Below, piece after piece: positions 409-56,739 of a stretch of 64,000 bases of DNA. Each line of letters begins with the position of its first letter. Within the stretch, counting starts at the first letter, position 1. The notes under the pieces were generated by a model. That model was not told the origin of the DNA. It did no database searches and saw only the letters and a list, made by a program, of their open reading frames with translations. The stretch comes from Fasciola hepatica (taxonomy: Eukaryota; Platyhelminthes; Trematoda; Plagiorchiida; Fasciolidae): assembly GCA_948099385.1 (NCBI GenBank), contig CANUEZ040000129.1:8616001-8680000 (forward strand), read 5' to 3'. The position numbers and the translations under genes were made by a program.

Positions 409-421
409 ATAATATGAAAGC
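409..421 (+). repeat. Left copy of 13-bp direct repeat flanking the array
   Basis: ATAATATGAAAGC lies exactly where unique flank meets the first (minus-strand) unit. The same 13 bases occur at 39667-39679, where the last plus-strand unit breaks off. It is best explained as a target-site duplication; a few terminal bases also match the unit by chance. Confidence 0.7.
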
Positions 422-464
422 ACTGTACAGCTGTTTTATCCTTGTTGGGAATCATCAGCAGTGC
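420..464 (-). ncRNA. Hammerhead ribozyme, edge copy, catalytically dead by G12A
   Basis: On the minus strand this has stem I GCACTG/CAGTGC, core CTGATGA and the same stem II as every other copy. The second core strand reads AAAA instead of GAAA: the base at 436 (plus-strand T for C) changes G12 to A. G12 is the general base of the hammerhead reaction, so this outermost copy is predicted not to cleave. I noticed no other core change of this kind among the copies. Confidence 0.8.
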
Positions 465-474
465 ACATCCACCG

Positions 475-546
475 AGCCCCCACGGGGACTCGAACCCGGG
501 GTGAACGATTGTGAATCGAACACCTTAACCACAAGGCTATCCGGGC
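475..546 (-). tRNA. tRNA-like sequence, edge copy 1
   Basis: Identical in the 72-nt tRNA-like part to the plus-strand consensus. A-box and B-box are both intact and the anticodon position reads CAC. It is preceded by the GTTGAG/CAAACC form of the 5' flank. Confidence 0.6.
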
Positions 547-820
547 TGGCTCTCAACGGTTTGTTGAACATCTACACTACATGATATAGCACCCTTCCGT
601 CACTGGCTTTTGAACGGTAACAACCCGCTTCCCACACAGCGATCGACTCCTATGGTGGATGACTTCTCTGTAGGGGCCTAAGTACAACGAAGGCATTCCG
701 TTATGAACAACCTACAGAGCTTGGTTACTATTTGCAAATGAGTAGTAGGAGATTAGATTTGTATATAATATGATTCATCATGCAGCTTGAACGCTCAACT
801 CACCATTGAAAACCATGGAA

Positions 821-865
821 GCACTGTACAGCTGTTTCATCCTTGTTGGGAATCATCAGCAGTGC
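821..865 (-). ncRNA. Hammerhead ribozyme, edge copy 2
   Basis: Core CTGATGA and GAAA, stem I GCACTG/CAGTGC and stem III ACAGCTGT are all intact on the minus strand. The oligo-T stop for a Pol III transcript appears as AAAA at 809-812 on the plus strand. Confidence 0.88.
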
Positions 866-875
866 ACATCCACCG

Positions 876-947
876 AGCCCCCACGGGGACTCGAACCCGG
901 GGTGAACGATTGTGAATCGAACACCTTAACCACAAGGCTATCCGGGC
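876..947 (-). tRNA. tRNA-like sequence, edge copy 2
   Basis: Consensus 72-nt tRNA-like part on the minus strand, with the GTTCAG/CACAACC form of its 5' flank. It differs from the first edge copy in that flank, so the two inverted copies are not a simple recent duplication of each other. Confidence 0.6.
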
Positions 948-1153
948 TGGCTCTGAACGGTTGTGTTGAACATCTACACTACATGATATAGCACCCTTCC
1001 GTCACTGGCTTTTGAACGGTAACAACCCGCTTCCCACACAGCGATCGACTCCTATGGTGGATGACTTCTCTGTAGGGGCCTAAGTACAACGAAGGAATTC
1101 CGTTATGAACAACCTACAGAGCTTGGTTACTATTTGCAAATGAGTAGTAGGAG

Positions 1154-1183
1154 ATGGTGGATGATTTCTCTGTCATCCACCAT
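1154..1183. repeat. Fold-back junction where array orientation flips
   Basis: ATGGTGGATGA (1154-1164) and TCATCCACCAT (1173-1183) form a perfect 11-bp inverted repeat around the 8-nt loop TTTCTCTG. The left arm and loop match the minus-strand unit (one C to T change). The right arm is where the plus-strand unit starts. The preceding minus unit was cut at GTAGGAGA, so both a jump and a strand flip occurred here, as expected from template switching at a hairpin. Confidence 0.9.
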
Positions 1184-1295
1184 AGGAGTCGATCGCTGTG
1201 TGGGAAGCGGGTTGTTACCGTTCAAAAGCCAGTGACGGAAGGGTGCTATATCATGTAGTGTAGATGTTCAACAAACCGTTGAGAGCCAGCCCGGA

Positions 1296-1306
1296 TAGCC
1301 TTGTGG
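1296..1306 (+). promoter_or_regulatory. Pol III A-box, type copy
   Basis: TAGCCTTGTGG fits the A-box consensus TRGYNNARNGG at 10 of 11 positions; the mismatch is T for A14. The same sequence occurs in each unit. Confidence 0.65.
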
Positions 1307-1338
1307 TTAAGGTGTTCGATTCACAATCGTTCACCCCG

Positions 1339-1349
1339 GGTTCGAGTCC
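1339..1349 (+). promoter_or_regulatory. Pol III B-box, type copy
   Basis: GGTTCGAGTCC is a perfect match to the B-box consensus GGTTCGANTCC. It starts 43 nt after the A-box start, which is normal tRNA-type spacing for TFIIIC binding. Confidence 0.75.
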
Positions 1350-1363
1350 CCGTGGGGGCTCGG

Positions 1364-1420
1364 TGGATGTGCACTGCTGATGATTCCCAACAAGGATGAA
1401 ACAGCTGTACAGTGCTTCCA
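1364..1420 (+). ncRNA. Hammerhead ribozyme, type I, minimal stem III (type copy)
   Basis: Stem I has two helices, TGGA/TCCA (1364-1367, 1417-1420) and GCACTG/CAGTGC (1371-1376, 1410-1415), around an asymmetric internal loop TGT/T. The core is CTGATGA (1377-1383) and GAAA (1398-1401). Stem II is TCC/GGA with loop CAACAA. Stem III is the self-complementary ACAGCTGT (1401-1408). The predicted cut is after A1409, at a GUA triplet. This matches the schistosome Sm-alpha hammerhead in layout, including a six-base C/A-rich loop II. Such tiny stem III versions are known to work best as dimers, which a palindromic stem III allows. One oddity is that the usual G10.1-C11.1 pair of stem II is T/T here, which should weaken activity. 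It lies 3 nt after the tRNA-like part on the same strand. Confidence 0.9.
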
Positions 1421-1423
1421 TGG

Positions 1424-1427
1424 TTTT
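1424..1427 (+). terminator. Oligo-T tract, likely Pol III terminator (type copy)
   Basis: TTTT lies 3 nt after the distal stem I strand of the hammerhead. A transcript starting near 1289 would be about 139 nt and would contain just the tRNA-like part and the ribozyme. The tract is in every complete unit. It is absent next to the outermost edge copy, where the array is cut. Confidence 0.6.
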
Positions 1428-1516
1428 CAATGGTGAGTTGAGCGTTCAAGCTGCATGATGAATCATATTATATACAAATCTAATCTCCTACTACTCATTT
1501 GCAAATAGTAACCAAG

Positions 1517-1570
1517 CTCTGTAGGTTGTTCATAACGGAATGCCTTCGTTGTACTTAGGCCCCTACAGAG
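1517..1570 (+). repeat. Conserved hairpin in the unit spacer (type copy)
   Basis: CTCTGTAGG (1517-1525) and CCTACAGAG (1562-1570) are perfect inverted repeats around 36 nt. The pair recurs in nearly all units, apart from single copies with one change (near 13178, 24429 and 24873). Function unknown; possible RNA stem or cruciform. Confidence 0.6.
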
Positions 1571-2494
1571 AAGTCATCCACCATAGGAGTCGATCGCTGT
1601 GTGGGAAGCGGGTTGTTACCGTTCAAAAGCCAGTGACGGAAGGGTGCTATATCATGTAGTGTAGATGTTCAACACAACCGTTGAGAGCCAGCCCGGATAG
1701 CCTTGTGGTTAAGGTGTTCGATTCACAATCGTTCACCCCGGGTTCGAGTCCCCGTGGGGGCTCGGTGGATGTGCACTGCTGATGATTCCCAACAAGGATG
1801 AAACAGCTGTACAGTGCTTCCATGGTTTTCAATGGTGAGTTGAGCGTTCAAGCTGCATGATGAATCATATTATATACAAATCTAATCTCCTACTACTCAT
1901 TTGCAAATAGTAACCAAGCTCTGTAGGTTGTTCATAACGGAATGCCTTCGTTGTACTTAGGCCCCTACAGAGAAGTCATCCACCATAGGAGTCGATCGCT
2001 GTGTGGGAAGCGGGTTGTTACCGTTCAAAAGCCAGTGACGGAAGGGTGCTATATCATGTAGTGTAGATGTTCAACACAACCGTTCAGAGCCAGCCCGGAT
2101 AGCCTTGTGGTTAAGGTGTTCGATTCACAATCGTTCACCCCGGGTTCGAGTCCCCGTGGGGGCTCGGTGGATGTGCACTGCTGATGATTCCCAACAAGGA
2201 TGAAACAGCTGTACAGTGCTTCCATGGTTTTCAATGGTGAGTTGAGCGTTCAAGCTGCATGATGAATCATATTATATACAAATCTAATCTCCTACTACTC
2301 ATTTGCAAATAGTAACCAAGCTCTGTAGGTTGTTCATAACGGAATGCCTTCGTTGTACTTAGGCCCCTACAGAGAAGTCATCCACCATAGGAGTCGATCG
2401 CTGTGTGGGAAGCGGGTTGTTACCGTTCAAAAGCCAGTGACGGAAGGGTGCTATATCATGTAGTGTAGATGTTCAACACAACCGTTCAGAGCCA

Positions 2495-5400
2495 GCCCGG
2501 ATAGCCTTGTGGTTAAGGTGTTCGATTCACAATCGTTCACCCCGGGTTCGAGTCCCCGTGGGGGCTCGGTGGATGTGCACTGCTGATGATTCCCAACAAG
2601 GATGAAACAGCTGTACAGTGCTTCCATGGTTTTCAATAGTGAGTTGAGCGTTCAAGCTGCATGATGAATCATATTATATACAAATCTAATCTCCTACTAC
2701 TCATTTGCAAATAGTAACCAAGCTCTGTAGGTTGTTCATAACGGAATGCCTTCGTTGTACTTAGGCCCCTACAGAGAAGTCATCCACCATAGGAGTCGAT
2801 CGCTGTGTGGGAAGCGGGTTGTTACCGTTCAAAAGCCAGTGACGGAAGGGTGCTATATCATGTAGTGTAGATGTTCAACACAACCGTTGAGAGCCAGCCC
2901 GGATAGCCTTGTGGTTAAGGTGTTCGATTCACAATCGTTCACCCCGGGTTCGAGTCCCCGTGGGGGCTCGGTGGATGTGCACTGCTGATGATTCCCAACA
3001 AGGATGAAACAGCTGTACAGTGCTTCCATGGTTTTCAATGGTGAGTTGAGCGTTCAAGCTGCATGATGAATCATATTATATACAAATCTAATCTCCTACT
3101 ACTCATTTGCAAATAGTAACCAAGCTCTGTAGGTTGTTCATAACGGAAAGCCTTCGTTGTACTTAGGCCCCTACAGAGAAGTCATCCACCATAGGAGTCG
3201 ATCGCTGTGTGGGAAGCGGGTTGTTACCGTTCAAAAGCCAGTGACGGAAGGGTGCTATATCATGTAGTGTAGATGTTCAACACAACCGTTCAGAGCCAGC
3301 CCGGATAGCCTTGTGGTTAAGGTGTTCGATTCACAATCGTTCACCCCGGGTTCGAGTCCCCGTGGGGGCTCGGTGGATGTGCACTGCTGATGATTCCCAA
3401 CAAGGATGAAACAGCTGTACAGTGCTTCCATGGTTTTCAATGGTGAGTTGAGCGTTCAAGCTGCATGATGAATCATATTATATACAAATCTAATCTCCTA
3501 CTACTCATTTGCAAATAGTAACCAAGCTCTGTAGGTTGTTCATAACGGAATGCCTTCGTTGTACTTAGGCCCCTACAGAGAAGTCATCCACCATAGGAGT
3601 CGATCGCTGTGTGGGAAGCGGGTTGTTACCGTTCAAAAGCCAGTGACGGAAGGGTGCTATATCATGTAGTGTAGATGTTCAACACAACCGTTGAGAGCCA
3701 GCCCGGATAGCCTTGTGGTTAAGGTGTTCGATTCACAATCGTTCACCCCGGGTTCGAGTCCCCGTGGGGGCTCGGTGGATGTGCACTGCTGATGATTCCC
3801 AACAAGGATGAAACAGCTGTACAGTGCTTCCATGGTTTTCAATAGTGAGTTGAGCGTTCAAGCTGCATGATGAATCATATTATATACAAATCTAATCTCC
3901 TACTACTCATTTGCAAATAGTAACCAAGCTCTGTAGGTTGTTCATAACGGAATGCCTTCGTTGTACTTAGGCCCCTACAGAGAAGTCATCCACCATAGGA
4001 GTCGATCGCTGTGTGGGAAGCGGGTTGTTACCGTTCAAAAGCCAGTGACGGAAGGGTGCTATATCATGTAGTGTAGATGTTCAACAAACCGTTGAGAGCC
4101 AGCCCGGATAGCCTTGTGGTTAAGGTGTTCGATTCACAATCGTTCACCCCGGGTTCGAGTCCCCGTGGGGGCTCGGTGGATGTGCACTGCTGATGATTCC
4201 CAACAAGGATGAAACAGCTGTACAGTGCTTCCATGGTTTTCAATGGTGAGTTGAGCGTTCAAGCTGCATGATGAATCATATTATATACAAATCTAATCTC
4301 CTACTACTCATTTGCAAATAGTAACCAAGCTCTGTAGGTTGTTCATAACGGAATGCCTTCGTTGTACTTAGGCCCCTACAGAGAAGTCATCCACCATAGG
4401 AGTCGATCGCTGTGTGGGAAGCGGGTTGTTACCGTTCAAAAGCCAGTGACGGAAGGGTGCTATATCATGTAGTGTAGATGTTCAACACAACCGTTCAGAG
4501 CCAGCCCGGATAGCCTTGTGGTTAAGGTGTTCGATTCACAATCGTTCACCCCGGGTTCGAGTCCCCGTGGGGGCTCGGTGGATGTGCACTGCTGATGATT
4601 CCCAACAAGGATGAAACAGCTGTACAGTGCTTCCATGGTTTTCAATGGTGAGTTGAGCGTTCAAGCTGCATGATGAATCATATTATATACAAATCTAATC
4701 TCCTACTACTCATTTGCAAATAGTAACCAAGCTCTGTAGGTTGTTCATAACGGAAAGCCTTCGTTGTACTTAGGCCCCTACAGAGAAGTCATCCACCATA
4801 GGAGTCGATCGCTGTGTGGGAAGCGGGTTGTTACCGTTCAAAAGCCAGTGACGGAAGGGTGCTATATCATGTAGTGTAGATGTTCAACACAACCGTTCAG
4901 AGCCAGCCCGGATAGCCTTGTGGTTAAGGTGTTCGATTCACAATCGTTCACCCCGGGTTCGAGTCCCCGTGGGGGCTCGGTGGATGTGCACTGCTGATGA
5001 TTCCCAACAAGGATGAAACAGCTGTACAGTGCTTCCATGGTTTTCAATGGTGAGTTGAGCGTTCAAGCTGCATGATGAATCATATTATATACAAATCTAA
5101 TCTCCTACTACTCATTTGCAAATAGTAACCAAGCTCTGTAGGTTGTTCATAACGGAATGCCTTCGTTGTACTTAGGCCCCTACAGAGAAGTCATCCACCA
5201 TAGGAGTCGATCGCTGTGTGGGAAGCGGGTTGTTACCGTTCAAAAGCCAGTGACGGAAGGGTGCTATATCATGTAGTGTAGATGTTCAACACAACCGTTG
5301 AGAGCCAGCCCGGATAGCCTTGTGGTTAAGGTGTTCGATTCACAATCGTTCACCCCGGGTTCGAGTCCCCGTGGGGGCTCGGTGGATGTGCACTGCTGAT

Positions 5401-8400
5401 GATTCCCAACAAGGATGAAACAGCTGTACAGTGCTTCCATGGTTTTCAATAGTGAGTTGAGCGTTCAAGCTGCATGATGAATCATATTATATACAAATCT
5501 AATCTCCTACTACTCATTTGCAAATAGTAACCAAGCTCTGTAGGTTGTTCATAACGGAATGCCTTCGTTGTACTTAGGCCCCTACAGAGAAGTCATCCAC
5601 CATAGGAGTCGATCGCTGTGTGGGAAGCGGGTTGTTACCGTTCAAAAGCCAGTGACGGAAGGGTGCTATATCATGTAGTGTAGATGTTCAACACAACCGT
5701 TCAGAGCCAGCCCGGATAGCCTTGTGGTTAAGGTGTTCGATTCACAATCGTTCACCCCGGGTTCGAGTCCCCGTGGGGGCTCGGTGGATGTGCACTGCTG
5801 ATGATTCCCAACAAGGATGAAACAGCTGTACAGTGCTTCCATGGTTTTCAATGGTGAGTTGAGCGTTCAAGCTGCATGATGAATCATATTATATACAAAT
5901 CTAATCTCCTACTACTCATTTGCAAATAGTAACCAAGCTCTGTAGGTTGTTCATAACGGAAAGCCTTCGTTGTACTTAGGCCCCTACAGAGAAGTCATCC
6001 ACCATAGGAGTCGATCGCTGTGTGGGAAGCGGGTTGTTACCGTTCAAAAGCCAGTGACGGAAGGGTGCTATATCATGTAGTGTAGATGTTCAACACAACC
6101 GTTCAGAGCCAGCCCGGATAGCCTTGTGGTTAAGGTGTTCGATTCACAATCGTTCACCCCGGGTTCGAGTCCCCGTGGGGGCTCGGTGGATGTGCACTGC
6201 TGATGATTCCCAACAAGGATGAAACAGCTGTACAGTGCTTCCATGGTTTTCAATGGTGAGTTGAGCGTTCAAGCTGCATGATGAATCATATTATATACAA
6301 ATCTAATCTCCTACTACTCATTTGCAAATAGTAACCAAGCTCTGTAGGTTGTTCATAACGGAATGCCTTCGTTGTACTTAGGCCCCTACAGAGAAGTCAT
6401 CCACCATAGGAGTCGATCGCTGTGTGGGAAGCGGGTTGTTACCGTTCAAAAGCCAGTGACGGAAGGGTGCTATATCATGTAGTGTAGATGTTCAACACAA
6501 CCGTTCAGAGCCAGCCCGGATAGCCTTGTGGTTAAGGTGTTCGATTCACAATCGTTCACCCCGGGTTCGAGTCCCCGTGGGGGCTCGGTGGATGTGCACT
6601 GCTGATGATTCCCAACAAGGATGAAACAGCTGTACAGTGCTTCCATGGTTTTCAATAGTGAGTTGAGCGTTCAAGCTGCATGATGAATCATATTATATAC
6701 AAATCTAATCTCCTACTACTCATTTGCAAATAGTAACCAAGCTCTGTAGGTTGTTCATAACGGAATGCCTTCGTTGTACTTAGGCCCCTACAGAGAAGTC
6801 ATCCACCATAGGAGTCGATCGCTGTGTGGGAAGCGGGTTGTTACCGTTCAAAAGCCAGTGACGGAAGGGTGCTATATCATGTAGTGTAGATGTTCAACAC
6901 AACCGTTCAGAGCCAGCCCGGATAGCCTTGTGGTTAAGGTGTTCGATTCACAATCGTTCACCCCGGGTTCGAGTCCCCGTGGGGGCTCGGTGGATGTGCA
7001 CTGCTGATGATTCCCAACAAGGATGAAACAGCTGTACAGTGCTTCCATGGTTTTCAATGGTGAGTTGAGCGTTCAAGCTGCATGATGAATCATATTATAT
7101 ACAAATCTAATCTCCTACTACTCATTTGCAAATAGTAACCAAGCTCTGTAGGTTGTTCATAACGGAATGCCTTCGTTGTACTTAGGCCCCTACAGAGAAG
7201 TCATCCACCATAGGAGTCGATCGCTGTGTGGGAAGCGGGTTGTTACCGTTCAAAAGCCAGTGACGGAAGGGTGCTATATCATGTAGTGTAGATGTTCAAC
7301 ACAACCGTTGAGAGCCAGCCCGGATAGCCTTGTGGTTAAGGTGTTCGATTCACAATCGTTCACCCCGGGTTCGAGTCCCCGTGGGGGCTCGGTGGATGTG
7401 CACTGCTGATGATTCCCAACAAGGATGAAACAGCTGTACAGTGCTTCCATGGTTTTCAATAGTGAGTTGAGCGTTCAAGCTGCATGATGAATCATATTAT
7501 ATACAAATCTAATCTCCTACTACTCATTTGCAAATAGTAACCAAGCTCTGTAGGTTGTTCATAACGGAATGCCTTCGTTGTACTTAGGCCCCTACAGAGA
7601 AGTCATCCACCATAGGAGTCGATCGCTGTGTGGGAAGCGGGTTGTTACCGTTCAAAAGCCAGTGACGGAAGGGTGCTATATCATGTAGTGTAGATGTTCA
7701 ACACAACCGTTGAGAGCCAGCCCGGATAGCCTTGTGGTTAAGGTGTTCGATTCACAATCGTTCACCCCGGGTTCGAGTCCCCGTGGGGGCTCGGTGGATG
7801 TGCACTGCTGATGATTCCCAACAAGGATGAAACAGCTGTACAGTGCTTCCATGGTTTTCAATGGTGAGTTGAGCGTTCAAGCTGCATGATGAATCATATT
7901 ATATACAAATCTAATCTCCTACTACTCATTTGCAAATAGTAACCAAGCTCTGTAGGTTGTTCATAACGGAAAGCCTTCGTTGTACTTAGGCCCCTACAGA
8001 GAAGTCATCCACCATAGGAGTCGATCGCTGTGTGGGAAGCGGGTTGTTACCGTTCAAAAGCCAGTGACGGAAGGGTGCTATATCATGTAGTGTAGATGTT
8101 CAACACAACCGTTGAGAGCCAGCCCGGATAGCCTTGTGGTTAAGGTGTTCGATTCACAATCGTTCACCCCGGGTTCGAGTCCCCGTGGGGGCTCGGTGGA
8201 TGTGCACTGCTGATGATTCCCAACAAGGATGAAACAGCTGTACAGTGCTTCCATGGTTTTCAATGGTGAGTTGAGCGTTCAAGCTGCATGATGAATCATA
8301 TTATATACAAATCTAATCTCCTACTACTCATTTGCAAATAGTAACCAAGCTCTGTAGGTTGTTCATAACGGAATGCCTTCGTTGTACTTAGGCCCCTACA

Positions 8401-10532
8401 GAGAAGTCATCCACCATAGGAGTCGATCGCTGTGTGGGAAGCGGGTTGTTACCGTTCAAAAGCCAGTGACGGAAGGGTGCTATATCATGTAGTGTAGATG
8501 TTCAACACAACCGTTGAGAGCCAGCCCGGATAGCCTTGTGGTTAAGGTGTTCGATTCACAATCGTTCACCCCGGGTTCGAGTCCCCGTGGGGGCTCGGTG
8601 GATGTGCACTGCTGATGATTCCCAACAAGGATGAAACAGCTGTACAGTGCTTCCATGGTTTTCAATAGTGAGTTGAGCGTTCAAGCTGCATGATGAATCA
8701 TATTATATACAAATCTAATCTCCTACTACTCATTTGCAAATAGTAACCAAGCTCTGTAGGTTGTTCATAACGGAATGCCTTCGTTGTACTTAGGCCCCTA
8801 CAGAGAAGTCATCCACCATAGGAGTCGATCGCTGTGTGGGAAGCGGGTTGTTACCGTTCAAAAGCCAGTGACGGAAGGGTGCTATATCATGTAGTGTAGA
8901 TGTTCAACAAACCGTTGAGAGCCAGCCCGGATAGCCTTGTGGTTAAGGTGTTCGATTCACAATCGTTCACCCCGGGTTCGAGTCCCCGTGGGGGCTCGGT
9001 GGATGTGCACTGCTGATGATTCCCAACAAGGATGAAACAGCTGTACAGTGCTTCCATGGTTTTCAATGGTGAGTTGAGCGTTCAAGCTGCATGATGAATC
9101 ATATTATATACAAATCTAATCTCCTACTACTCATTTGCAAATAGTAACCAAGCTCTGTAGGTTGTTCATAACGGAATGCCTTCGTTGTACTTAGGCCCCT
9201 ACAGAGAAGTCATCCACCATAGGAGTCGATCGCTGTGTGGGAAGCGGGTTGTTACCGTTCAAAAGCCAGTGACGGAAGGGTGCTATATCATGTAGTGTAG
9301 ATGTTCAACACAACCGTTCAGAGCCAGCCCGGATAGCCTTGTGGTTAAGGTGTTCGATTCACAATCGTTCACCCCGGGTTCGAGTCCCCGTGGGGGCTCG
9401 GTGGATGTGCACTGCTGATGATTCCCAACAAGGATGAAACAGCTGTACAGTGCTTCCATGGTTTTCAATGGTGAGTTGAGCGTTCAAGCTGCATGATGAA
9501 TCATATTATATACAAATCTAATCTCCTACTACTCATTTGCAAATAGTAACCAAGCTCTGTAGGTTGTTCATAACGGAAAGCCTTCGTTGTACTTAGGCCC
9601 CTACAGAGAAGTCATCCACCATAGGAGTCGATCGCTGTGTGGGAAGCGGGTTGTTACCGTTCAAAAGCCAGTGACGGAAGGGTGCTATATCATGTAGTGT
9701 AGATGTTCAACACAACCGTTCAGAGCCAGCCCGGATAGCCTTGTGGTTAAGGTGTTCGATTCACAATCGTTCACCCCGGGTTCGAGTCCCCGTGGGGGCT
9801 CGGTGGATGTGCACTGCTGATGATTCCCAACAAGGATGAAACAGCTGTACAGTGCTTCCATGGTTTTCAATGGTGAGTTGAGCGTTCAAGCTGCATGATG
9901 AATCATATTATATACAAATCTAATCTCCTACTACTCATTTGCAAATAGTAACCAAGCTCTGTAGGTTGTTCATAACGGAATGCCTTCGTTGTACTTAGGC
10001 CCCTACAGAGAAGTCATCCACCATAGGAGTCGATCGCTGTGTGGGAAGCGGGTTGTTACCGTTCAAAAGCCAGTGACGGAAGGGTGCTATATCATGTAGT
10101 GTAGATGTTCAACACAACCGTTGAGAGCCAGCCCGGATAGCCTTGTGGTTAAGGTGTTCGATTCACAATCGTTCACCCCGGGTTCGAGTCCCCGTGGGGG
10201 CTCGGTGGATGTGCACTGCTGATGATTCCCAACAAGGATGAAACAGCTGTACAGTGCTTCCATGGTTTTCAATGGTGAGTTGAGCGTTCAAGCTGCATGA
10301 TGAATCATATTATATACAAATCTAATCTCCTACTACTCATTTGCAAATAGTAACCAAGCTCTGTAGGTTGTTCATAACGGAAAGCCTTCGTTGTACTTAG
10401 GCCCCTACAGAGAAGTCATCCACCATAGGAGTCGATCGCTGTGTGGGAAGCGGGTTGTTACCGTTCAAAAGCCAGTGACGGAAGGGTGCTATATCATGTA
10501 GTGTAGATGTTCAACACAACCGTTCAGAGCCA
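2495..10532 (+). repeat. Higher-order repeat zone 1 (three-unit theme)
   Basis: Two marker changes appear only here. G to A at tRNA start+143 (AATAGTGAG) is in the units starting 2495, 3701, 5308, 6514, 7318 and 8524. T to A at start+252 (GGAAAGCC) is in the units 2897, 4504, 5710, 7720, 9327 and 10131. They never share a unit, and they recur as a trimer: AAAGCC unit, plain unit, AATAG unit (2897-3701, 4504-5308, 5710-6514, 7720-8524). A single 401-bp unit follows two of these trimers. This is the pattern left by unequal exchange of multi-unit blocks. Confidence 0.8.
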
Positions 10533-16155: not shown

Positions 16156-16227
16156 GCCCGGATAGCCTTGTGGTTAAGGTGTTCGATTCACAATCGTTCA
16201 CCCCGGGTTCGAGTCCCCGTAGGGGCT
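16156..16227 (+). tRNA. tRNA-like copy with G to A at position 66
   Basis: Base 16221 is A instead of G in the 3' acceptor strand (TAGGGGC for TGGGGGC). The hammerhead downstream is unchanged. Confidence 0.55.
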
Positions 16228-24996: not shown

Positions 24997-25068
24997 GCCC
25001 GGATAGCCTTGTGGTTAAGGTGTTCGATACACAATCGTTCACCCCGGGTTCGAGTCCCCGTGGGGGCT
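24997..25068 (+). tRNA. tRNA-like copy with U33 changed to A
   Basis: Base 25029 is A instead of T. This is the position of the universally conserved U33, which makes the anticodon U-turn. The change would spoil a working tRNA, but it leaves A-box and B-box untouched. Confidence 0.55.
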
Positions 25069-28000: not shown

Positions 28001-28612
28001 CTAATCTCCTACTACTCATTTGCAAATAGTAACCAAGCTCTGTAGGTTGTTCATAACGGAATGCCTTCGTTGTACTTAGGCCCCTACAGAGAAGTCATCC
28101 ACCATAGGAGTCGATCGCTGTGTGGGAAGCGGGTTGTTACCGTTCAAAAGCCAGTGACGGAAGGGTGCTATATCATGTAGTGTAGATGTTCAACACAACC
28201 GTTCAGAGCCAGCCCGGATAGCCTTGTGGTTAAGGTGTTCGATTCACAATCGTTCACCCCGGGTTCGAGTCCCCGTGGGGGCTCGGTGGATGTGCACTGC
28301 TGATGATTCCCAACAAGGATGAAACAGCTGTACAGTGCTTCCATGGTTTTCAATGGTGAGTTGAGCGTTCAAGCTGCATGATGAATCATATTATATACAA
28401 ATCTAATCTCCTACTACTCATTTGCAAATAGTAACCAAGCTCTGTAGGTTGTTCATAACGGAATGCCTTCGTTGTACTTAGGCCCCTACAGAGAAGTCAT
28501 CCACCATAGGAGTCGATCGCTGTGTGGGAAGCGGGTTGTTACCGTTCAAAAGCCAGTGACGGAGGGGTGCTATATCATGTAGTGTAGATGTTCAACAAAC
28601 CGTTGAGAGCCA

Positions 28613-31600
28613 GCCCGGATAGCCTTGTGGTTAAGGTGTTCGATTCACAATCGTTCACCCCGGGTTCGAGTCCCCGTGGGGGCTCGGTGGATGTGCACTG
28701 CTGATGATTCCCAACAAGGATGAAACAGCTGTACAGTGCTTCCATGGTTTTCAATGGTGAGTTGAGCGTTCAAGCTGCATGATGAATCATATTATATACA
28801 AATCTAATCTCCTACTACTCATTTGCAAATAGTAACCAAGCTCTGTAGGTTGTTCATAACGGAATGCCTTCGTTGTACTTAGGCCCCTACAGAGAAGTCA
28901 TCCACCATAGGAGTCGATCGCTGTGTGGGAAGCGGGTTGTTACCGTTCAAAAGCCAGTGACGGAAGGGTGCTATATCATGTAGTGTAGATGTTCAACAAA
29001 CCGTTGAGAGCCAGCCCGGATAGCCTTGTGGTTAAGGTGTTCGATTCACAATCGTTCACCCCGGGTTCGAGTCCCCGTGGGGGCTCGGTGGATGTGCACT
29101 GCTGATGATTCCCAACAAGGATGAAACAGCTGTACAGTGCTTCCATGGTTTTCAATGGTGAGTTGAGCGTTCAAGCTGCATGATGAATCATATTATATAC
29201 AAATCTAATCTCCTACTACTCATTTGCAAATAGTAACCAAGCTCTGTAGGTTGTTCATAACGGAATGCCTTCGTTGTACTTAGGCCCCTACAGAGAAGTC
29301 ATCCACCATAGGAGTCGATCGCTGTGTGGGAAGCGGGTTGTTACCGTTCAAAAGCCAGTGACGGAAGGGTGCTATATCATGTAGTGTAGATGTTCAACAC
29401 AACCGTTCAGAGCCAGCCCGGATAGCCTTGTGGTTAAGGTGTTCGATTCACAATCGTTCACCCCGGGTTCGAGTCCCCGTGGGGGCTCGGTGGATGTGCA
29501 CTGCTGATGATTCCCAACAAGGATGAAACAGCTGTACAGTGCTTCCATGGTTTTCAATGGTGAGTTGAGCGTTCAAGCTGCATGATGAATCATATTATAT
29601 ACAAATCTAATCTCCTACTACTCATTTGCAAATAGTAACCAAGCTCTGTAGGTTGTTCATAACGGAATGCCTTCGTTGTACTTAGGCCCCTACAGAGAAG
29701 TCATCCACCATAGGAGTCGATCGCTGTGTGGGAAGCGGGTTGTTACCGTTCAAAAGCCAGTGACGGAAGGGTGCTATATCATGTAGTGTAGATGTTCAAC
29801 ACAACCGTTCAGAGCCAGCCCGGATAGCCTTGTGGTTAAGGTGTTCGATTCACAATCGTTCACCCCGGGTTCGAGTCCCCGTGGGGGCTCGGTGGATGTG
29901 CACTGCTGATGATTCCCAACAAGGATGAAACAGCTGTACAGTGCTTCCATGGTTTTCAATGGTGAGTTGAGCGTTCAAGCTGCATGATGAATCATATTAT
30001 ATACAAATCTAATCTCCTACTACTCATTTGCAAATAGTAACCAAGCTCTGTAGGTTGTTCATAACGGAATGCCTTCGTTGTACTTAGGCCCCTACAGAGA
30101 AGTCATCCACCATAGGAGTCGATCGCTGTGTGGGAAGCGGGTTGTTACCGTTCAAAAGCCAGTGACGGAAGGGTGCTATATCATGTAGTGTAGATGTTCA
30201 ACACAACCGTTCAGAGCCAGCCCGGATAGCCTTGTGGTTAAGGTGTTCGATTCACAATCGTTCACCCCGGGTTCGAGTCCCCGTGGGGGCTCGGTGGATG
30301 TGCACTGCTGATGATTCCCAACAAGGATGAAACAGCTGTACAGTGCTTCCATGGTTTTCAATGGTGAGTTGAGCGTTCAAGCTGCATGATGAATCATATT
30401 ATATACAAATCTAATCTCCTACTACTCATTTGCAAATAGTAACCAAGCTCTGTAGGTTGTTCATAACGGAATGCCTTCGTTGTACTTAGGCCCCTACAGA
30501 GAAGTCATCCACCATAGGAGTCGATCGCTGTGTGGGAAGCGGGTTGTTACCGTTCAAAAGCCAGTGACGGAGGGGTGCTATATCATGTAGTGTAGATGTT
30601 CAACAAACCGTTGAGAGCCAGCCCGGATAGCCTTGTGGTTAAGGTGTTCGATTCACAATCGTTCACCCCGGGTTCGAGTCCCCGTGGGGGCTCGGTGGAT
30701 GTGCACTGCTGATGATTCCCAACAAGGATGAAACAGCTGTACAGTGCTTCCATGGTTTTCAATGGTGAGTTGAGCGTTCAAGCTGCATGATGAATCATAT
30801 TATATACAAATCTAATCTCCTACTACTCATTTGCAAATAGTAACCAAGCTCTGTAGGTTGTTCATAACGGAATGCCTTCGTTGTACTTAGGCCCCTACAG
30901 AGAAGTCATCCACCATAGGAGTCGATCGCTGTGTGGGAAGCGGGTTGTTACCGTTCAAAAGCCAGTGACGGAAGGGTGCTATATCATGTAGTGTAGATGT
31001 TCAACAAACCGTTGAGAGCCAGCCCGGATAGCCTTGTGGTTAAGGTGTTCGATTCACAATCGTTCACCCCGGGTTCGAGTCCCCGTGGGGGCTCGGTGGA
31101 TGTGCACTGCTGATGATTCCCAACAAGGATGAAACAGCTGTACAGTGCTTCCATGGTTTTCAATGGTGAGTTGAGCGTTCAAGCTGCATGATGAATCATA
31201 TTATATACAAATCTAATCTCCTACTACTCATTTGCAAATAGTAACCAAGCTCTGTAGGTTGTTCATAACGGAATGCCTTCGTTGTACTTAGGCCCCTACA
31301 GAGAAGTCATCCACCATAGGAGTCGATCGCTGTGTGGGAAGCGGGTTGTTACCGTTCAAAAGCCAGTGACGGAAGGGTGCTATATCATGTAGTGTAGATG
31401 TTCAACACAACCGTTCAGAGCCAGCCCGGATAGCCTTGTGGTTAAGGTGTTCGATTCACAATCGTTCACCCCGGGTTCGAGTCCCCGTGGGGGCTCGGTG
31501 GATGTGCACTGCTGATGATTCCCAACAAGGATGAAACAGCTGTACAGTGCTTCCATGGTTTTCAATGGTGAGTTGAGCGTTCAAGCTGCATGATGAATCA

Positions 31601-34232
31601 TATTATATACAAATCTAATCTCCTACTACTCATTTGCAAATAGTAACCAAGCTCTGTAGGTTGTTCATAACGGAATGCCTTCGTTGTACTTAGGCCCCTA
31701 CAGAGAAGTCATCCACCATAGGAGTCGATCGCTGTGTGGGAAGCGGGTTGTTACCGTTCAAAAGCCAGTGACGGAAGGGTGCTATATCATGTAGTGTAGA
31801 TGTTCAACACAACCGTTCAGAGCCAGCCCGGATAGCCTTGTGGTTAAGGTGTTCGATTCACAATCGTTCACCCCGGGTTCGAGTCCCCGTGGGGGCTCGG
31901 TGGATGTGCACTGCTGATGATTCCCAACAAGGATGAAACAGCTGTACAGTGCTTCCATGGTTTTCAATGGTGAGTTGAGCGTTCAAGCTGCATGATGAAT
32001 CATATTATATACAAATCTAATCTCCTACTACTCATTTGCAAATAGTAACCAAGCTCTGTAGGTTGTTCATAACGGAATGCCTTCGTTGTACTTAGGCCCC
32101 TACAGAGAAGTCATCCACCATAGGAGTCGATCGCTGTGTGGGAAGCGGGTTGTTACCGTTCAAAAGCCAGTGACGGAGGGGTGCTATATCATGTAGTGTA
32201 GATGTTCAACAAACCGTTGAGAGCCAGCCCGGATAGCCTTGTGGTTAAGGTGTTCGATTCACAATCGTTCACCCCGGGTTCGAGTCCCCGTGGGGGCTCG
32301 GTGGATGTGCACTGCTGATGATTCCCAACAAGGATGAAACAGCTGTACAGTGCTTCCATGGTTTTCAATGGTGAGTTGAGCGTTCAAGCTGCATGATGAA
32401 TCATATTATATACAAATCTAATCTCCTACTACTCATTTGCAAATAGTAACCAAGCTCTGTAGGTTGTTCATAACGGAATGCCTTCGTTGTACTTAGGCCC
32501 CTACAGAGAAGTCATCCACCATAGGAGTCGATCGCTGTGTGGGAAGCGGGTTGTTACCGTTCAAAAGCCAGTGACGGAAGGGTGCTATATCATGTAGTGT
32601 AGATGTTCAACAAACCGTTGAGAGCCAGCCCGGATAGCCTTGTGGTTAAGGTGTTCGATTCACAATCGTTCACCCCGGGTTCGAGTCCCCGTGGGGGCTC
32701 GGTGGATGTGCACTGCTGATGATTCCCAACAAGGATGAAACAGCTGTACAGTGCTTCCATGGTTTTCAATGGTGAGTTGAGCGTTCAAGCTGCATGATGA
32801 ATCATATTATATACAAATCTAATCTCCTACTACTCATTTGCAAATAGTAACCAAGCTCTGTAGGTTGTTCATAACGGAATGCCTTCGTTGTACTTAGGCC
32901 CCTACAGAGAAGTCATCCACCATAGGAGTCGATCGCTGTGTGGGAAGCGGGTTGTTACCGTTCAAAAGCCAGTGACGGAGGGGTGCTATATCATGTAGTG
33001 TAGATGTTCAACAAACCGTTGAGAGCCAGCCCGGATAGCCTTGTGGTTAAGGTGTTCGATTCACAATCGTTCACCCCGGGTTCGAGTCCCCGTGGGGGCT
33101 CGGTGGATGTGCACTGCTGATGATTCCCAACAAGGATGAAACAGCTGTACAGTGCTTCCATGGTTTTCAATGGTGAGTTGAGCGTTCAAGCTGCATGATG
33201 AATCATATTATATACAAATCTAATCTCCTACTACTCATTTGCAAATAGTAACCAAGCTCTGTAGGTTGTTCATAACGGAATGCCTTCGTTGTACTTAGGC
33301 CCCTACAGAGAAGTCATCCACCATAGGAGTCGATCGCTGTGTGGGAAGCGGGTTGTTACCGTTCAAAAGCCAGTGACGGAAGGGTGCTATATCATGTAGT
33401 GTAGATGTTCAACAAACCGTTGAGAGCCAGCCCGGATAGCCTTGTGGTTAAGGTGTTCGATTCACAATCGTTCACCCCGGGTTCGAGTCCCCGTGGGGGC
33501 TCGGTGGATGTGCACTGCTGATGATTCCCAACAAGGATGAAACAGCTGTACAGTGCTTCCATGGTTTTCAATGGTGAGTTGAGCGTTCAAGCTGCATGAT
33601 GAATCATATTATATACAAATCTAATCTCCTACTACTCATTTGCAAATAGTAACCAAGCTCTGTAGGTTGTTCATAACGGAATGCCTTCGTTGTACTTAGG
33701 CCCCTACAGAGAAGTCATCCACCATAGGAGTCGATCGCTGTGTGGGAAGCGGGTTGTTACCGTTCAAAAGCCAGTGACGGAGGGGTGCTATATCATGTAG
33801 TGTAGATGTTCAACAAACCGTTGAGAGCCAGCCCGGATAGCCTTGTGGTTAAGGTGTTCGATTCACAATCGTTCACCCCGGGTTCGAGTCCCCGTGGGGG
33901 CTCGGTGGATGTGCACTGCTGATGATTCCCAACAAGGATGAAACAGCTGTACAGTGCTTCCATGGTTTTCAATGGTGAGTTGAGCGTTCAAGCTGCATGA
34001 TGAATCATATTATATACAAATCTAATCTCCTACTACTCATTTGCAAATAGTAACCAAGCTCTGTAGGTTGTTCATAACGGAATGCCTTCGTTGTACTTAG
34101 GCCCCTACAGAGAAGTCATCCACCATAGGAGTCGATCGCTGTGTGGGAAGCGGGTTGTTACCGTTCAAAAGCCAGTGACGGAAGGGTGCTATATCATGTA
34201 GTGTAGATGTTCAACACAACCGTTCAGAGCCA
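28613..34232 (+). repeat. Higher-order repeat zone 2 (blocks led by a GGAGGGG unit)
   Basis: An A to G change 49 nt before the tRNA-like part (GACGGAGGGG) marks the units at 28613, 30621, 32227, 33029 and 33831. All are 401-bp units. The first four are each followed by one plain 401-bp unit, then a varying number of 402-bp GTTCAG units. The spacings are 5, 4, 2 and 2 units, so the block has been lengthened or shortened by whole units. Confidence 0.8.
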
Positions 34233-37200
34233 GCCCGGATAGCCTTGTGGTTAAGGTGTTCGATTCACAATCGTTCACCCCGGGTTCGAGTCCCCGTGGG
34301 GGCTCGGTGGATGTGCACTGCTGATGATTCCCAACAAGGATGAAACAGCTGTACAGTGCTTCCATGGTTTTCAATGGTGAGTTGAGCGTTCAAGCTGCAT
34401 GATGAATCATATTATATACAAATCTAATCTCCTACTACTCATTTGCAAATAGTAACCAAGCTCTGTAGGTTGTTCATAACGGAATGCCTTCGTTGTACTT
34501 AGGCCCCTACAGAGAAGTCATCCACCATAGGAGTCGATCGCTGTGTGGGAAGCGGGTTGTTACCGTTCAAAAGCCAGTGACGGAAGGGTGCTATATCATG
34601 TAGTGTAGATGTTCAACACAACCGTTCAGAGCCAGCCCGGATAGCCTTGTGGTTAAGGTGTTCGATTCACAATCGTTCACCCCGGGTTCGAGTCCCCGTG
34701 GGGGCTCGGTGGATGTGCACTGCTGATGATTCCCAACAAGGATGAAACAGCTGTACAGTGCTTCCATGGTTTTCAATGGTGAGTTGAGCGTTCAAGCTGC
34801 ATGATGAATCATATTATATACAAATCTAATCTCCTACTACTCATTTGCAAATAGTAACCAAGCTCTGTAGGTTGTTCATAACGGAATGCCTTCGTTGTAC
34901 TTAGGCCCCTACAGAGAAGTCATCCACCATAGGAGTCGATCGCTGTGTGGGAAGCGGGTTGTTACCGTTCAAAAGCCAGTGACGGAAGGGTGCTATATCA
35001 TGTAGTGTAGATGTTCAACACAACCGTTCAGAGCCAGCCCGGATAGCCTTGTGGTTAAGGTGTTCGATTCACAATCGTTCACCCCGGGTTCGAGTCCCCG
35101 TGGGGGCTCGGTGGATGTGCACTGCTGATGATTCCCAACAAGGATGAAACAGCTGTACAGTGCTTCCATGGTTTTCAATGGTGAGTTGAGCGTTCAAGCT
35201 GCATGATGAATCATATTATATACAAATCTAATCTCCTACTACTCATTTGCAAATAGTAACCAAGCTCTGTAGGTTGTTCATAACGGAATGCCTTCGTTGT
35301 ACTTAGGCCCCTACAGAGAAGTCATCCACCATAGGAGTCGATCGCTGTGTGGGAAGCGGGTTGTTACCGTTCAAAAGCCAGTGACGGAAGGGTGCTATAT
35401 CATGTAGTGTAGATGTTCAACAAACCGTTGAGAGCCAGCCCGGATAGCCTTGTGGTTAAGGTGTTCGATTCACAATCGTTCACCCCGGGTTCGAGTCCCC
35501 GTGGGGGCTCGGTGGATGTGCACTGCTGATGATTCCCAACAAGGATGAAACAGCTGTACAGTGCTTCCATGGTTTTCAATGGTGAGTTGAGCGTTCAAGC
35601 TGCATGATGAATCATATTATATACAAATCTAATCTCCTACTACTCATTTGCAAATAGTAACCAAGCTCTGTAGGTTGTTCATAACGGAATGCCTTCGTTG
35701 TACTTAGGCCCCTACAGAGAAGTCATCCACCATAGGAGTCGATCGCTGTGTGGGAAGCGGGTTGTTACCGTTCAAAAGCCAGTGACGGAAGGGTGCTATA
35801 TCATGTAGTGTAGATGTTCAACAAACCGTTGAGAGCCAGCCCGGATAGCCTTGTGGTTAAGGTGTTCGATTCACAATCGTTCACCCCGGGTTCGAGTCCC
35901 CGTGGGGGCTCGGTGGATGTGCACTGCTGATGATTCCCAACAAGGATGAAACAGCTGTACAGTGCTTCCATGGTTTTCAATGGTGAGTTGAGCGTTCAAG
36001 CTGCATGATGAATCATATTATATACAAATCTAATCTCCTACTACTCATTTGCAAATAGTAACCAAGCTCTGTAGGTTGTTCATAACGGAATGCCTTCGTT
36101 GTACTTAGGCCCCTACAGAGAAGTCATCCACCATAGGAGTCGATCGCTGTGTGGGAAGCGGGTTGTTACCGTTCAAAAGCCAGTGACGGAAGGGTGCTAT
36201 ATCATGTAGTGTAGATGTTCAACAAACCGTTGAGAGCCAGCCCGGATAGCCTTGTGGTTAAGGTGTTCGATTCACAATCGTTCACCCCGGGTTCGAGTCC
36301 CCGTGGGGGCTCGGTGGATGTGCACTGCTGATGATTCCCAACAAGGATGAAACAGCTGTACAGTGCTTCCATGGTTTTCAATGGTGAGTTGAGCGTTCAA
36401 GCTGCATGATGAATCATATTATATACAAATCTAATCTCCTACTACTCATTTGCAAATAGTAACCAAGCTCTGTAGGTTGTTCATAACGGAATGCCTTCGT
36501 TGTACTTAGGCCCCTACAGAGAAGTCATCCACCATAGGAGTCGATCGCTGTGTGGGAAGCGGGTTGTTACCGTTCAAAAGCCAGTGACGGAAGGGTGCTA
36601 TATCATGTAGTGTAGATGTTCAACACAACCGTTGAGAGCCAGCCCGGATAGCCTTGTGGTTAAGGTGTTCGATTCACAATCGTTCACCCCGGGTTCGAGT
36701 CCCCGTGGGGGCTCGGTGGATGTGCACTGCTGATGATTCCCAACAAGGATGAAACAGCTGTACAGTGCTTCCATGGTTTTCAATGGTGAGTTGAGCGTTC
36801 AAGCTGCATGATGAATCATATTATATACAAATCTAATCTCCTACTACTCATTTGCAAATAGTAACCAAGCTCTGTAGGTTGTTCATAACGGAATGCCTTC
36901 GTTGTACTTAGGCCCCTACAGAGAAGTCATCCACCATAGGAGTCGATCGCTGTGTGGGAAGCGGGTTGTTACCGTTCAAAAGCCAGTGACGGAAGGGTGC
37001 TATATCATGTAGTGTAGATGTTCAACAAACCGTTGAGAGCCAGCCCGGATAGCCTTGTGGTTAAGGTGTTCGATTCACAATCGTTCACCCCGGGTTCGAG
37101 TCCCCGTGGGGGCTCGGTGGATGTGCACTGCTGATGATTCCCAACAAGGATGAAACAGCTGTACAGTGCTTCCATGGTTTTCAATGGTGAGTTGAGCGTT

Positions 37201-37443
37201 CAAGCTGCATGATGAATCATATTATATACAAATCTAATCTCCTACTACTCATTTGCAAATAGTAACCAAGCTCTGTAGGTTGTTCATAACGGAATGCCTT
37301 CGTTGTACTTAGGCCCCTACAGAGAAGTCATCCACCATAGGAGTCGATCGCTGTGTGGGAAGCGGGTTGTTACCGTTCAAAAGCCAGTGACGGAAGGGTG
37401 CTATATCATGTAGTGTAGATGTTCAACAAACCGTTGAGAGCCA

Positions 37444-37515
37444 GCCCGGATAGCCTTGTGGTTAAAGTGTTCGATTCACAATCGTTCACCCCGGGTTCGA
37501 GTCCCCGTGGGGGCT
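37444..37515 (+). tRNA. tRNA-like copy with G to A in the D-stem
   Basis: Base 37466 is A instead of G (position 23), breaking a C-G pair of the D-stem. The two boxes and the ribozyme are unchanged. Confidence 0.55.
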
Positions 37516-39450
37516 CGGTGGATGTGCACTGCTGATGATTCCCAACAAGGATGAAACAGCTGTACAGTGCTTCCATGGTTTTCAATGGTGAGTTGAGCGT
37601 TCAAGCTGCATGATGAATCATATTATATACAAATCTAATCTCCTACTACTCATTTGCAAATAGTAACCAAGCTCTGTAGGTTGTTCATAACGGAATGCCT
37701 TCGTTGTACTTAGGCCCCTACAGAGAAGTCATCCACCATAGGAGTCGATCGCTGTGTGGGAAGCGGGTTGTTACCGTTCAAAAGCCAGTGACGGAAGGGT
37801 GCTATATCATGTAGTGTAGATGTTCAACACAACCGTTCAGAGCCAGCCCGGATAGCCTTGTGGTTAAGGTGTTCGATTCACAATCGTTCACCCCGGGTTC
37901 GAGTCCCCGTGGGGGCTCGGTGGATGTGCACTGCTGATGATTCCCAACAAGGATGAAACAGCTGTACAGTGCTTCCATGGTTTTCAATGGTGAGTTGAGC
38001 GTTCAAGCTGCATGATGAATCATATTATATACAAATCTAATCTCCTACTACTCATTTGCAAATAGTAACCAAGCTCTGTAGGTTGTTCATAACGGAATGC
38101 CTTCGTTGTACTTAGGCCCCTACAGAGAAGTCATCCACCATAGGAGTCGATCGCTGTGTGGGAAGCGGGTTGTTACCGTTCAAAAGCCAGTGACGGAAGG
38201 GTGCTATATCATGTAGTGTAGATGTTCAACACAACCGTTCAGAGCCAGCCCGGATAGCCTTGTGGTTAAGGTGTTCGATTCACAATCGTTCACCCCGGGT
38301 TCGAGTCCCCGTGGGGGCTCGGTGGATGTGCACTGCTGATGATTCCCAACAAGGATGAAACAGCTGTACAGTGCTTCCATGGTTTTCAATGGTGAGTTGA
38401 GCGTTCAAGCTGCATGATGAATCATATTATATACAAATCTAATCTCCTACTACTCATTTGCAAATAGTAACCAAGCTCTGTAGGTTGTTCATAACGGAAT
38501 GCCTTCGTTGTACTTAGGCCCCTACAGAGAAGTCATCCACCATAGGAGTCGATCGCTGTGTGGGAAGCGGGTTGTTACCGTTCAAAAGCCAGTGACGGAA
38601 GGGTGCTATATCATGTAGTGTAGATGTTCAACAAACCGTTGAGAGCCAGCCCGGATAGCCTTGTGGTTAAGGTGTTCGATTCACAATCGTTCACCCCGGG
38701 TTCGAGTCCCCGTGGGGGCTCGGTGGATGTGCACTGCTGATGATTCCCAACAAGGATGAAACAGCTGTACAGTGCTTCCATGGTTTTCAATGGTGAGTTG
38801 AGCGTTCAAGCTGCATGATGAATCATATTATATACAAATCTAATCTCCTACTACTCATTTGCAAATAGTAACCAAGCTCTGTAGGTTGTTCATAACGGAA
38901 TGCCTTCGTTGTACTTAGGCCCCTACAGAGAAGTCATCCACCATAGGAGTCGATCGCTGTGTGGGAAGCGGGTTGTTACCGTTCAAAAGCCAGTGACGGA
39001 AGGGTGCTATATCATGTAGTGTAGATGTTCAACAAACCGTTGAGAGCCAGCCCGGATAGCCTTGTGGTTAAGGTGTTCGATTCACAATCGTTCACCCCGG
39101 GTTCGAGTCCCCGTGGGGGCTCGGTGGATGTGCACTGCTGATGATTCCCAACAAGGATGAAACAGCTGTACAGTGCTTCCATGGTTTTCAATGGTGAGTT
39201 GAGCGTTCAAGCTGCATGATGAATCATATTATATACAAATCTAATCTCCTACTACTCATTTGCAAATAGTAACCAAGCTCTGTAGGTTGTTCATAACGGA
39301 ATGCCTTCGTTGTACTTAGGCCCCTACAGAGAAGTCATCCACCATAGGAGTCGATCGCTGTGTGGGAAGCGGGTTGTTACCGTTCAAAAGCCAGTGACGG
39401 AAGGGTGCTATATCATGTAGTGTAGATGTTCAACAAACCGTTGAGAGCCA

Positions 39451-39522
39451 GCCCGGATAGCCTTGTGGTTAAGGTGTTCGATTCACAATCGTTCACCCCG
39501 GGTTCGAGTCCCCGTGGGGGCT
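39451..39522 (+). tRNA. Last tRNA-like copy of the array
   Basis: Consensus sequence with the 401-bp type 5' flank. Its unit is truncated about 147 bp after the tRNA-like part, at the right border of the array. Confidence 0.6.
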
Positions 39523-39525
39523 CGG

Positions 39526-39582
39526 TGGATGTGCACTGCTGATGATTCCCAACAAGGATGAAACAGCTGTACAGTGCTTCCA
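39526..39582 (+). ncRNA. Last hammerhead ribozyme of the array
   Basis: All core and stem positions equal the type copy: core CTGATGA and GAAA, stem III ACAGCTGT, GUA cleavage triplet. The unit then runs to TTGCAAATA and stops. Confidence 0.9.
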
Positions 39583-39666
39583 TGGTTTTCAATGGTGAGT
39601 TGAGCGTTCAAGCTGCATGATGAATCATATTATATACAAATCTAATCTCCTACTACTCATTTGCAA

Positions 39667-39679
39667 ATAATATGAAAGC
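39667..39679 (+). repeat. Right copy of 13-bp direct repeat flanking the array
   Basis: ATAATATGAAAGC sits at the point where the last unit departs from consensus (GCAAATAGTAACC becomes GCAAATAATATG). It equals 409-421. Confidence 0.7.
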
Positions 39680-48160: not shown

Positions 48161-48166
48161 GTTGCC

Positions 48167-56695: not shown

Positions 56696-56739
56696 GTGCT
56701 GTACATCTCTTACAATCTCGTATGGGTCCTCAGCAGTGC
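56696..56739 (-). ncRNA. Degenerate hammerhead-like sequence beside unit-related DNA
   Basis: On the minus strand it reads GCACTG, CTGAGGA (fits the core CTGANGA), a stem II region with CATACGAG, GTAA where GAAA is expected, then GATGTA and CAGCAC. Stem I has two mismatches and A13 is changed, so it should be inactive. The next bases (about 56765-56805) carry TAATCTCCTACTAC and CAAATA..T.ACC as in the satellite spacer, but in plus orientation, so the locus is rearranged. Confidence 0.45.

Follow-up and report, generated by a model that had tools for sequence, protein, structure and literature searches.

Tandem repeats that combine a tRNA-derived sequence with a type I hammerhead ribozyme (HHR) are known from schistosomes and are counted among the retrozymes without long terminal repeats (non-LTR retrozymes). 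The schistosome repeats carry a full tRNA-Gln (tRNA-Glu in the legend of Fig. 7; PMC4918200), 2342 of the 2368 tRNA-Gln-TTG-like genes of Schistosoma mansoni are classed as short interspersed nuclear elements (SINE) similar to Sm-alpha (PMC2770079), and the Sm-alpha-like W36.2 measures 335 bp (PMC8490949). Non-LTR retrozymes are tandem repeats of 150-450 bp with type I hammerheads and low G+C content, ranging from dimers to 62-mers in coral, and produce circular RNAs; strong self-pairing of the RNA is also described for retrozymes (PMC7229834). Retrozyme target site duplications exceed 4 bp and reach 15 bp in Nematostella (PMC4918200), and a return to DNA through circular intermediates, with a helper from some autonomous retrotransposon, has been proposed (PMC7229834, PMC7761336). 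The subject of the present work is a tRNA-headed hammerhead element with a 402-bp unit, which forms a 39-kb array in a 64,000-nucleotide stretch of the Fasciola hepatica genome (GCA_948099385.1, contig CANUEZ040000129.1, positions 8,616,001 to 8,680,000; hereafter the window) and is dispersed elsewhere in the same 1.5-Gb genome of 656 contigs. Mitochondrial COX1 from this genome has its highest score under genetic code 9, that of echinoderms and flatworms (393.1 bits versus 387.2 and 386.7).

Judged by its parts, the element belongs to the known retrozyme/schistosome type, and what is new is its insertion pattern, not the combination of tRNA body and hammerhead. The nearly complete tRNA body, put forward as a novelty in a preliminary description made from the sequence alone, has a precedent in the schistosome tRNA-Gln (PMC4918200). 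The element resembles Sm-alpha and Sj-alpha in its tRNA-derived sequence and type I hammerhead, similar repeat size, high copy number and SINE-like character; it differs in its Val-like head (as called by ARAGORN) and 402-bp unit, the comparison being one of parts and not of sequence. With metazoan non-LTR retrozymes it shares a type I hammerhead in 402-bp tandem repeats, the lack of coding capacity, a G+C content of 47.5% (below 50%, as in those elements), strong self-pairing and long target site duplications (13 bp at the array; at least 12 bp in 12 of 24 two-armed loci). It differs from them in the head-to-head arrangement and paired start sites of 28 of its 52 dispersed copies, and its RNA circle is one that we infer. 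No account of two-armed, two-entry insertions was found in the consulted portions of the retrozyme and Sm-alpha literature, by a non-exhaustive search that was aimed only in small part at target duplications and predates the start-site rule presented below.

The array itself is a two-armed insertion. Tandem Repeats Finder (TRF) delimits a 402-bp array at 1172-39669 (95.8 copies, 99% matches), which is the direct arm; a short inverted arm lies to its left, and the two are enclosed by a 13-bp target site duplication (Table 1). The preliminary description had counted 98 cassettes, and this number is right; 96 cassettes are direct and 2 inverted, a difference that it did not state, and it mentioned neither the inverted arm nor the duplication. 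Common stretches of at least 13 bp were found in only 2 of about 20000 random pairs of 40-mers. Exact hammerhead 45-mers occur 96 times on the plus strand and once on the minus strand, and the leftmost inverted hammerhead is probably inactive, given a G to A change in its GAAA. A 9-bp inverted repeat (GGTGGATGA/TCATCCACC) straddles the arm junction. Variants within the array are locally confined and interspersed (260A in units 4-19, 369A in units 5-23, 67G in units 69-82), as exchange within the array would give. Divergence is 0.52% between the arms and 0.38% within an arm (14 units, first 8000 bases). The sequence GTATATAATATGA is present in the left flank of the array (window 405-417), and the same letters occur on the minus strand of the unit, perhaps reflecting pairing between target and RNA; a left arm start at unit position 304, once deduced from this match, was dropped, the 13-bp duplication explaining more.

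An exact 46-mer of the cassette occurs 8764 times genome-wide, as against 0 for the reversed-pattern control. In total, 61 regions were fetched, originating from clusters among the first 100 of the 8764 places listed (the C12 array at one end only), from 28 further places (12 regions) and from 100 of the 102 places listed for a variant-unit pattern (16 regions). Nine were excluded: L128 (a palindrome including its flanks), L135 (the same insertion as L134), L149 and L151 (the same as L148), and L136, L140, L143, L162 and L167 (inside or cut by arrays), leaving 52 dispersed insertions. Sampled pieces of contigs C67 and C20 are array throughout. The flanks of L128 are mutually reverse complementary, which corresponds either to a long palindrome or to an assembly fold-back. 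Among the 100 of 102 variant-unit matches listed, many crowd on C67 (21.15-22.56 Mb) and on contig C159 (6.98-7.19 Mb); the crowding on C67 extends over more than 1 Mb near the contig end and is likely a megabase-size satellite.

Inverted and direct arms occur in one relative order only. Of these 52 loci, 27 have an inverted arm followed by a direct one (-+), one is --+ (L166, counted for duplications and cut site but not for end positions), 14 are +, 10 are - and none is +-. Thus 28 of 52 are two-armed and head-to-head, with one RNA region turned outward, or 29 of 52 after correction of L150, which was entered as one-armed in the sample counts and whose second, minus-strand arm was later found on the left. 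Outer ends lie at unit positions 286-347 in 76 of 78 arms, whereas inner ends are scattered, with 12 of 78 in this interval; this lends no support to a linear template beginning (5') near unit 336, as an even spread would also give these 12. Each of the 27 two-armed loci scored for ends has one outer end in a distal class (324-338) and one in a proximal class (237-315; 296-312 in 23 loci), a pairing that has P = 7e-9 under independent draws with equal class shares, for a rule noticed after the fact. The offset between the two start sites is 23-46 nt in 24 of the 27 loci (median 31, full range 14-96 nt), and left and right positions of the distal arm are about equally frequent (13 and 14). Arms overlap by 1-11 nt at 21 of 26 junctions, L110 (12 nt) being outside this count. 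Inner ends are found at unit 72-83 in 9 of 77 cases, above an even spread.

Target site duplications accompany the two-armed form. Duplications of at least 12 bp were found at 12 of 24 two-armed loci, 0 of 22 one-armed loci and 1 of 2070 mismatched flank pairs; with at least 8 bp, the corresponding counts are 16 of 24, 5 of 22 and 15 of 2070. Those of the family measure 12-15 bp, and in most cases a few nucleotides of the duplicated copies also belong to the element, at one end or at both, as if pairing had occurred between the target 3' ends and the RNA. Six of the 52 insertions lie in (TA)n targets and were left outside the duplication counts; (TA)6 is present in 43 of 11423 background 42-mers. 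The dispersed copies, their duplications and the confinement of outer ends to one short stretch agree with the preliminary description where it likened the element to Sm-alpha and retrozymes and proposed an RNA-based replication strategy.

The explanation that we favour, with a probability of about 0.68, is that of a non-autonomous, tRNA-headed hammerhead retroelement, Sm-alpha-like and of the non-LTR retrozyme type, in which reverse transcription is primed from the two strands of a staggered break, on an RNA that is uncut and probably circular. In brief, the target would be broken with a stagger of about 12-15 nt; one target 3' end would enter the RNA at unit 324-338, and the entry of the other would mostly be at 296-312; the RNA would be uncut at the hammerhead site; both cDNAs would extend towards the 5' side, in most cases past the hammerhead and in some for several laps; and they would be joined head-to-head, usually at short homologies, to give a two-armed insertion between target duplications. 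The 39-kb array would be such an insertion, with its 13-bp duplication, the right arm of which was later enlarged by local exchange, many laps at birth perhaps also contributing. The RNA could be transcribed by RNA polymerase III (Pol III) and copied by a helper reverse transcriptase. A more specific version is tentative and falls somewhat short of an even chance: each of the two 3' ends would load a reverse transcriptase onto one and the same RNA circle, the two preferred entry sites being about 31 nt apart, and the two enzymes would travel in the same direction, covering anything from part of a lap to several laps, before the cDNAs are sealed head-to-head. If it is true, tandem ribozyme arrays would be born as multi-lap cDNA and unequal exchange would only enlarge them. 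More generally, dispersed insertions with readable ends, start sites and lap numbers are a direct record of retrozyme re-entry into DNA, and the rule of head-to-head arms, one distal and one proximal start and a duplication of about 12-15 bp sets limits on the enzyme and lends itself to testing in any genome with such elements.

Several data bear on the template. Arms pass through the hammerhead cut site in 74 of 81 cases and no inner end lies at unit 236-240, so that a cleaved linear monomer is not the usual template. Moreover, 19 of 80 arms exceed 402 nt, and L105 contains five identical units. Mean divergence between units of one arm is 0-0.76% in five multi-unit loci (highest pair 1.76%, in L127) and divergence between arms is 0.21-0.52% in three loci; in L123, the divergence is 0.21% between the arms and 0.22% within an arm, and the corresponding values in L127 are 0.43% and 0.76%. 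First units of nine different loci diverge by 3.48% on average (36 pairs, 0.25-10.8%). In 9 of the 21 testable loci, no compared arm is as close as the partner arm, and in 12 a rare variant is common to both arms (10 such variants in L159, 6 in L117); the mean difference is 3.9% between partner arms versus 6.3% between loci. A circle copied from two entry points would be the simplest explanation of these data, the main alternative being a long uncleaved linear RNA. A source RNA of mixed multimers, deduced from the differing haplotypes of the two inverted units in the window, was considered and dropped because the C at unit 101 is missing from most other loci and the other haplotype of the window may have spread later.

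A number of observations weigh against the favoured explanation or narrow its basis. The loci were picked by exact short matches and are a non-random sample. Half of the scored two-armed loci have no 12-bp duplication, and 5 of 26 arm junctions have no overlap. The ends in the window itself (241/335, offset 94) are atypical, as are those of L106 (offset 96) and L160 (80). Beyond the sample, the old relic in the window and L150, the latter without a duplication, fit the rule, but there are only three such cases; an older copy in L164 fits in orientation and not in end positions. No rare variant is common to the arms in 9 of the 21 loci, and the difference between partner arms in L125, L144 and L156 is larger than the average between arms of different loci; such poorly matching partners may derive from different molecules or be old. 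Circularity is deduced from the insertions, and uncleaved linear multimers would cross the cut site too. A helper reverse transcriptase is likewise presumed.

Plain satellite DNA, grown by unequal exchange and carrying its tRNA and hammerhead as relics with no present movement, would account for the very homogeneous units, for variants shared locally as local exchange gives, and for the many matches in the long arrays of C67 and C159. It is nevertheless unlikely as a full account, since the dispersed insertions, with their target duplications and narrowly placed outer ends, attest past movement, though not present movement. Twin priming of the L1 type on a linear SINE RNA, in which the second strand primes internally and yields an inverted 5' piece, shares with the Fasciola insertions an inverted and a direct piece, head-to-head, between target duplications, as well as short overlaps. 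In twin priming, each piece derives from a separate part of the one RNA, and the position of the second start varies. The Fasciola arms, by contrast, start in the same short RNA region and overlap: after trimming, at least 40 unit columns are common to both arms in 21 of 27 two-armed loci, and the two starts are mostly 23-46 nt apart, which makes this route quite unlikely.

The described cassette is confirmed, with reservations on some of its parts. Its tRNA-like sequence with A and B boxes was correctly recognised: RF00005 exceeds its gathering score of 29 in 96 of 98 cassettes, with 33.1 bits (33.6 in one unit), ARAGORN calls a tRNA in 96 cassettes as 'Val(cac)', and an A-box-like TAGCCTTGTGG and a B box GGTTCGAGTCC are found in the unit. 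The tRNA is degenerate, with 5 mispairs and a cloverleaf of -9.0 kcal/mol (-14.9 when further pairs are allowed) versus a minimum free energy of -31.8. The hammerhead core, of type I, starts 10 nt past the tRNA-like body. The Rfam check proposed for it gave a mixed result, as RF00163 matches with E 8e-5 in 900 bp but with 28.8 bits, under the gathering score of 34. The hammerhead is plausible yet not a textbook one, since its stem II has a U.U mismatch at the base and its stem III consists of two pairs closed by a palindromic loop; its activity is predicted, as is cleavage after 1409, deduced from the core. A U.U mismatch at the same place and a two-pair stem III are also described for the axolotl HHR_Amex2, the loop of which is a tetraloop and the monomeric repeat of which was cleaved to 22% in 1 h, the dimer performing better (PMC7229834); the two differ in host and element, and for the Fasciola hammerhead activity is a prediction only. 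In RNAcofold, a double hammerhead is the best dimer (-42.1 versus twice -18.1 kcal/mol), which is not special evidence because the Rfam consensus favours a dimer too. Fold energies were also discarded as a mark of this hammerhead: in the Rfam consensus, too, the active fold lies 5 kcal/mol above the best one. Self-pairing of the circular unit RNA is strong (z -5.35 versus 100 shuffles, 64% paired). The TTTT motif does occur once per unit on the plus strand, as announced, but its placement is weak evidence because shuffled units contain 1.33 on average and 4.3% of shuffles have one within 20 nt of the point where it was described. The absence of an encoded protein was a reasonable claim because no frame of more than 66 amino acids, stop to stop, is present in the first four units.

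Conservation of the tRNA and hammerhead, from which a function had been argued, was not borne out. Among 95 units, 14 of 402 columns vary and are spread without regard to either part: 3 of 72 in the tRNA, 0 of 45 in the hammerhead (Fisher p 0.38) and 3 of 139 in the cassette (p 0.40). In dispersed copies selected independently of the hammerhead, its divergence is 5.14%, compared with 4.43% at unit 1-116, 6.97% at 165-198, 5.69% at 244-285 and 3.01% at 339-402. The argument fails: in conservation, the hammerhead does not stand out clearly from its surroundings. An apparently strong conservation (0.96%) came from loci picked by an exact 46-mer overlapping the hammerhead and vanished in the differently chosen sample. 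These results bear on the proposal of a Pol III transcript of about 139 nt, a tRNA/ribozyme chimera that would remove its own trailer and act as a functional RNA of the cell. The A and B boxes, hammerhead and TTTT in this order, together with three arms whose inner ends lie at unit 106-108, some 17 nt upstream of the A box, where a Pol III start would be expected, speak for it. Neither part is conserved beyond the rest of the unit, many arms exceed 139 nt, the hammerhead layout is weak as a monomer in axolotl (PMC7229834), and self-trimming is further weakened by the U.U mismatch, the 2-bp stem III and the poor TTTT placement, so that the proposal is very improbable. Snap-back, in which a cDNA folds back, primes its own second strand and is inserted as a hairpin, would also give head-to-head arms and fits the equal inner ends of L120 (208/208), but it is largely refuted by inner ends that are unequal in all the remaining 26 loci of 27 (12 apart in L109, further apart in the rest) and by outer ends that are always unequal, by 14-96 nt.

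Table 1. Features of the element and its relics in the window (unit positions refer to the 402-bp repeat)
Feature	Position	Strand	Basis
Target site duplication, left copy, 13 bp, ATAATATGAAAGC	409..421		ATAATATGAAAGC in the window only at 409 and 39667
Inverted arm, about 1.85 units, outer end at about unit position 241	422..1154	-	alignment; 2 inverted cassettes
Leftmost hammerhead, GAAA to AAAA	431..458	-	sequence
Head-to-head arm junction, small rearranged fragment	1155..1171		sequence
Direct arm, 95 complete 401/402-bp units and 1 partial, end at unit position 335	1172..39669	+	
tRNA-like head, first plus-strand unit (unit 117-188)	1289..1360	+	RF00005, 33.1 bits; boxes
A box, first plus-strand unit	1296..1306	+	
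B box, first plus-strand unit	1339..1349	+	
Predicted type I hammerhead core, first plus-strand unit (unit 199-243)	1371..1415	+	RF00163, 28.8 bits
TTTT, possible Pol III terminator (weak)	1424..1427	+	one per unit
Proximal arm-start region, first plus-strand unit (unit 296-312)	1468..1484	+	outer ends of dispersed copies
Distal arm-start region, first plus-strand unit (unit 328-338)	1500..1510	+	outer ends of dispersed copies
Target site duplication, right copy, 13 bp, first 3 bases common with the unit	39667..39679		
Old fragment, tRNA 3' half into hammerhead stem I	51300..51353	+	72% over 54 nt
Old two-armed relic, inverted hammerhead half (unit 296 to 199) and direct tail (unit 280 to 326)	56646..56783		

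Both old copies to the right of the array exceed chance similarity: the inverted half of the relic has a local score of 33 and the old fragment a score of 24, each versus a shuffled maximum of 16. Unit positions 325-334 (for example window 1497-1506) form a perfect 10-bp palindrome, ATTTGCAAAT, which ends beside the distal entry site and resembles an octamer motif.

A hammerhead directly behind a tRNA gene was also detected, by means of our own descriptor, in the IMG/VR contigs L001, L002, L003, L004, L005, L006, L009, L012 and L021. All three stems are present in 11 of the 21 matches to this tRNA-hammerhead pattern, compared with 0 of 5 for a scrambled core and 0 of 69 for prokaryote genomes; among these 11, L011 and L016 have no Rfam tRNA, and L001 and L005 look like one sequence. 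At the IMG/VR loci Rfam detects tRNAs and no hammerhead (at the gathering cut-off; at 4 loci at E up to 0.01). The HHR-core pattern gave 0 matches in viral and prokaryote contigs, and no paper on the viral tRNA-hammerhead arrangement turned up in literature listings.

In the remainder of the window, an open reading frame at 41847-42317, LINE-like at first look, was set aside, having no homologue and no reverse transcriptase domain in Pfam. Pieces of a broken Helitron lie at 45853-46167 and 47944-48261; the first matches PF14214 (8.8e-20). The nearest named relative of the first, N-terminal piece is from Dicrocoelium dendriticum, and the named matches of the second, C-terminal one are from a bat and spiders.

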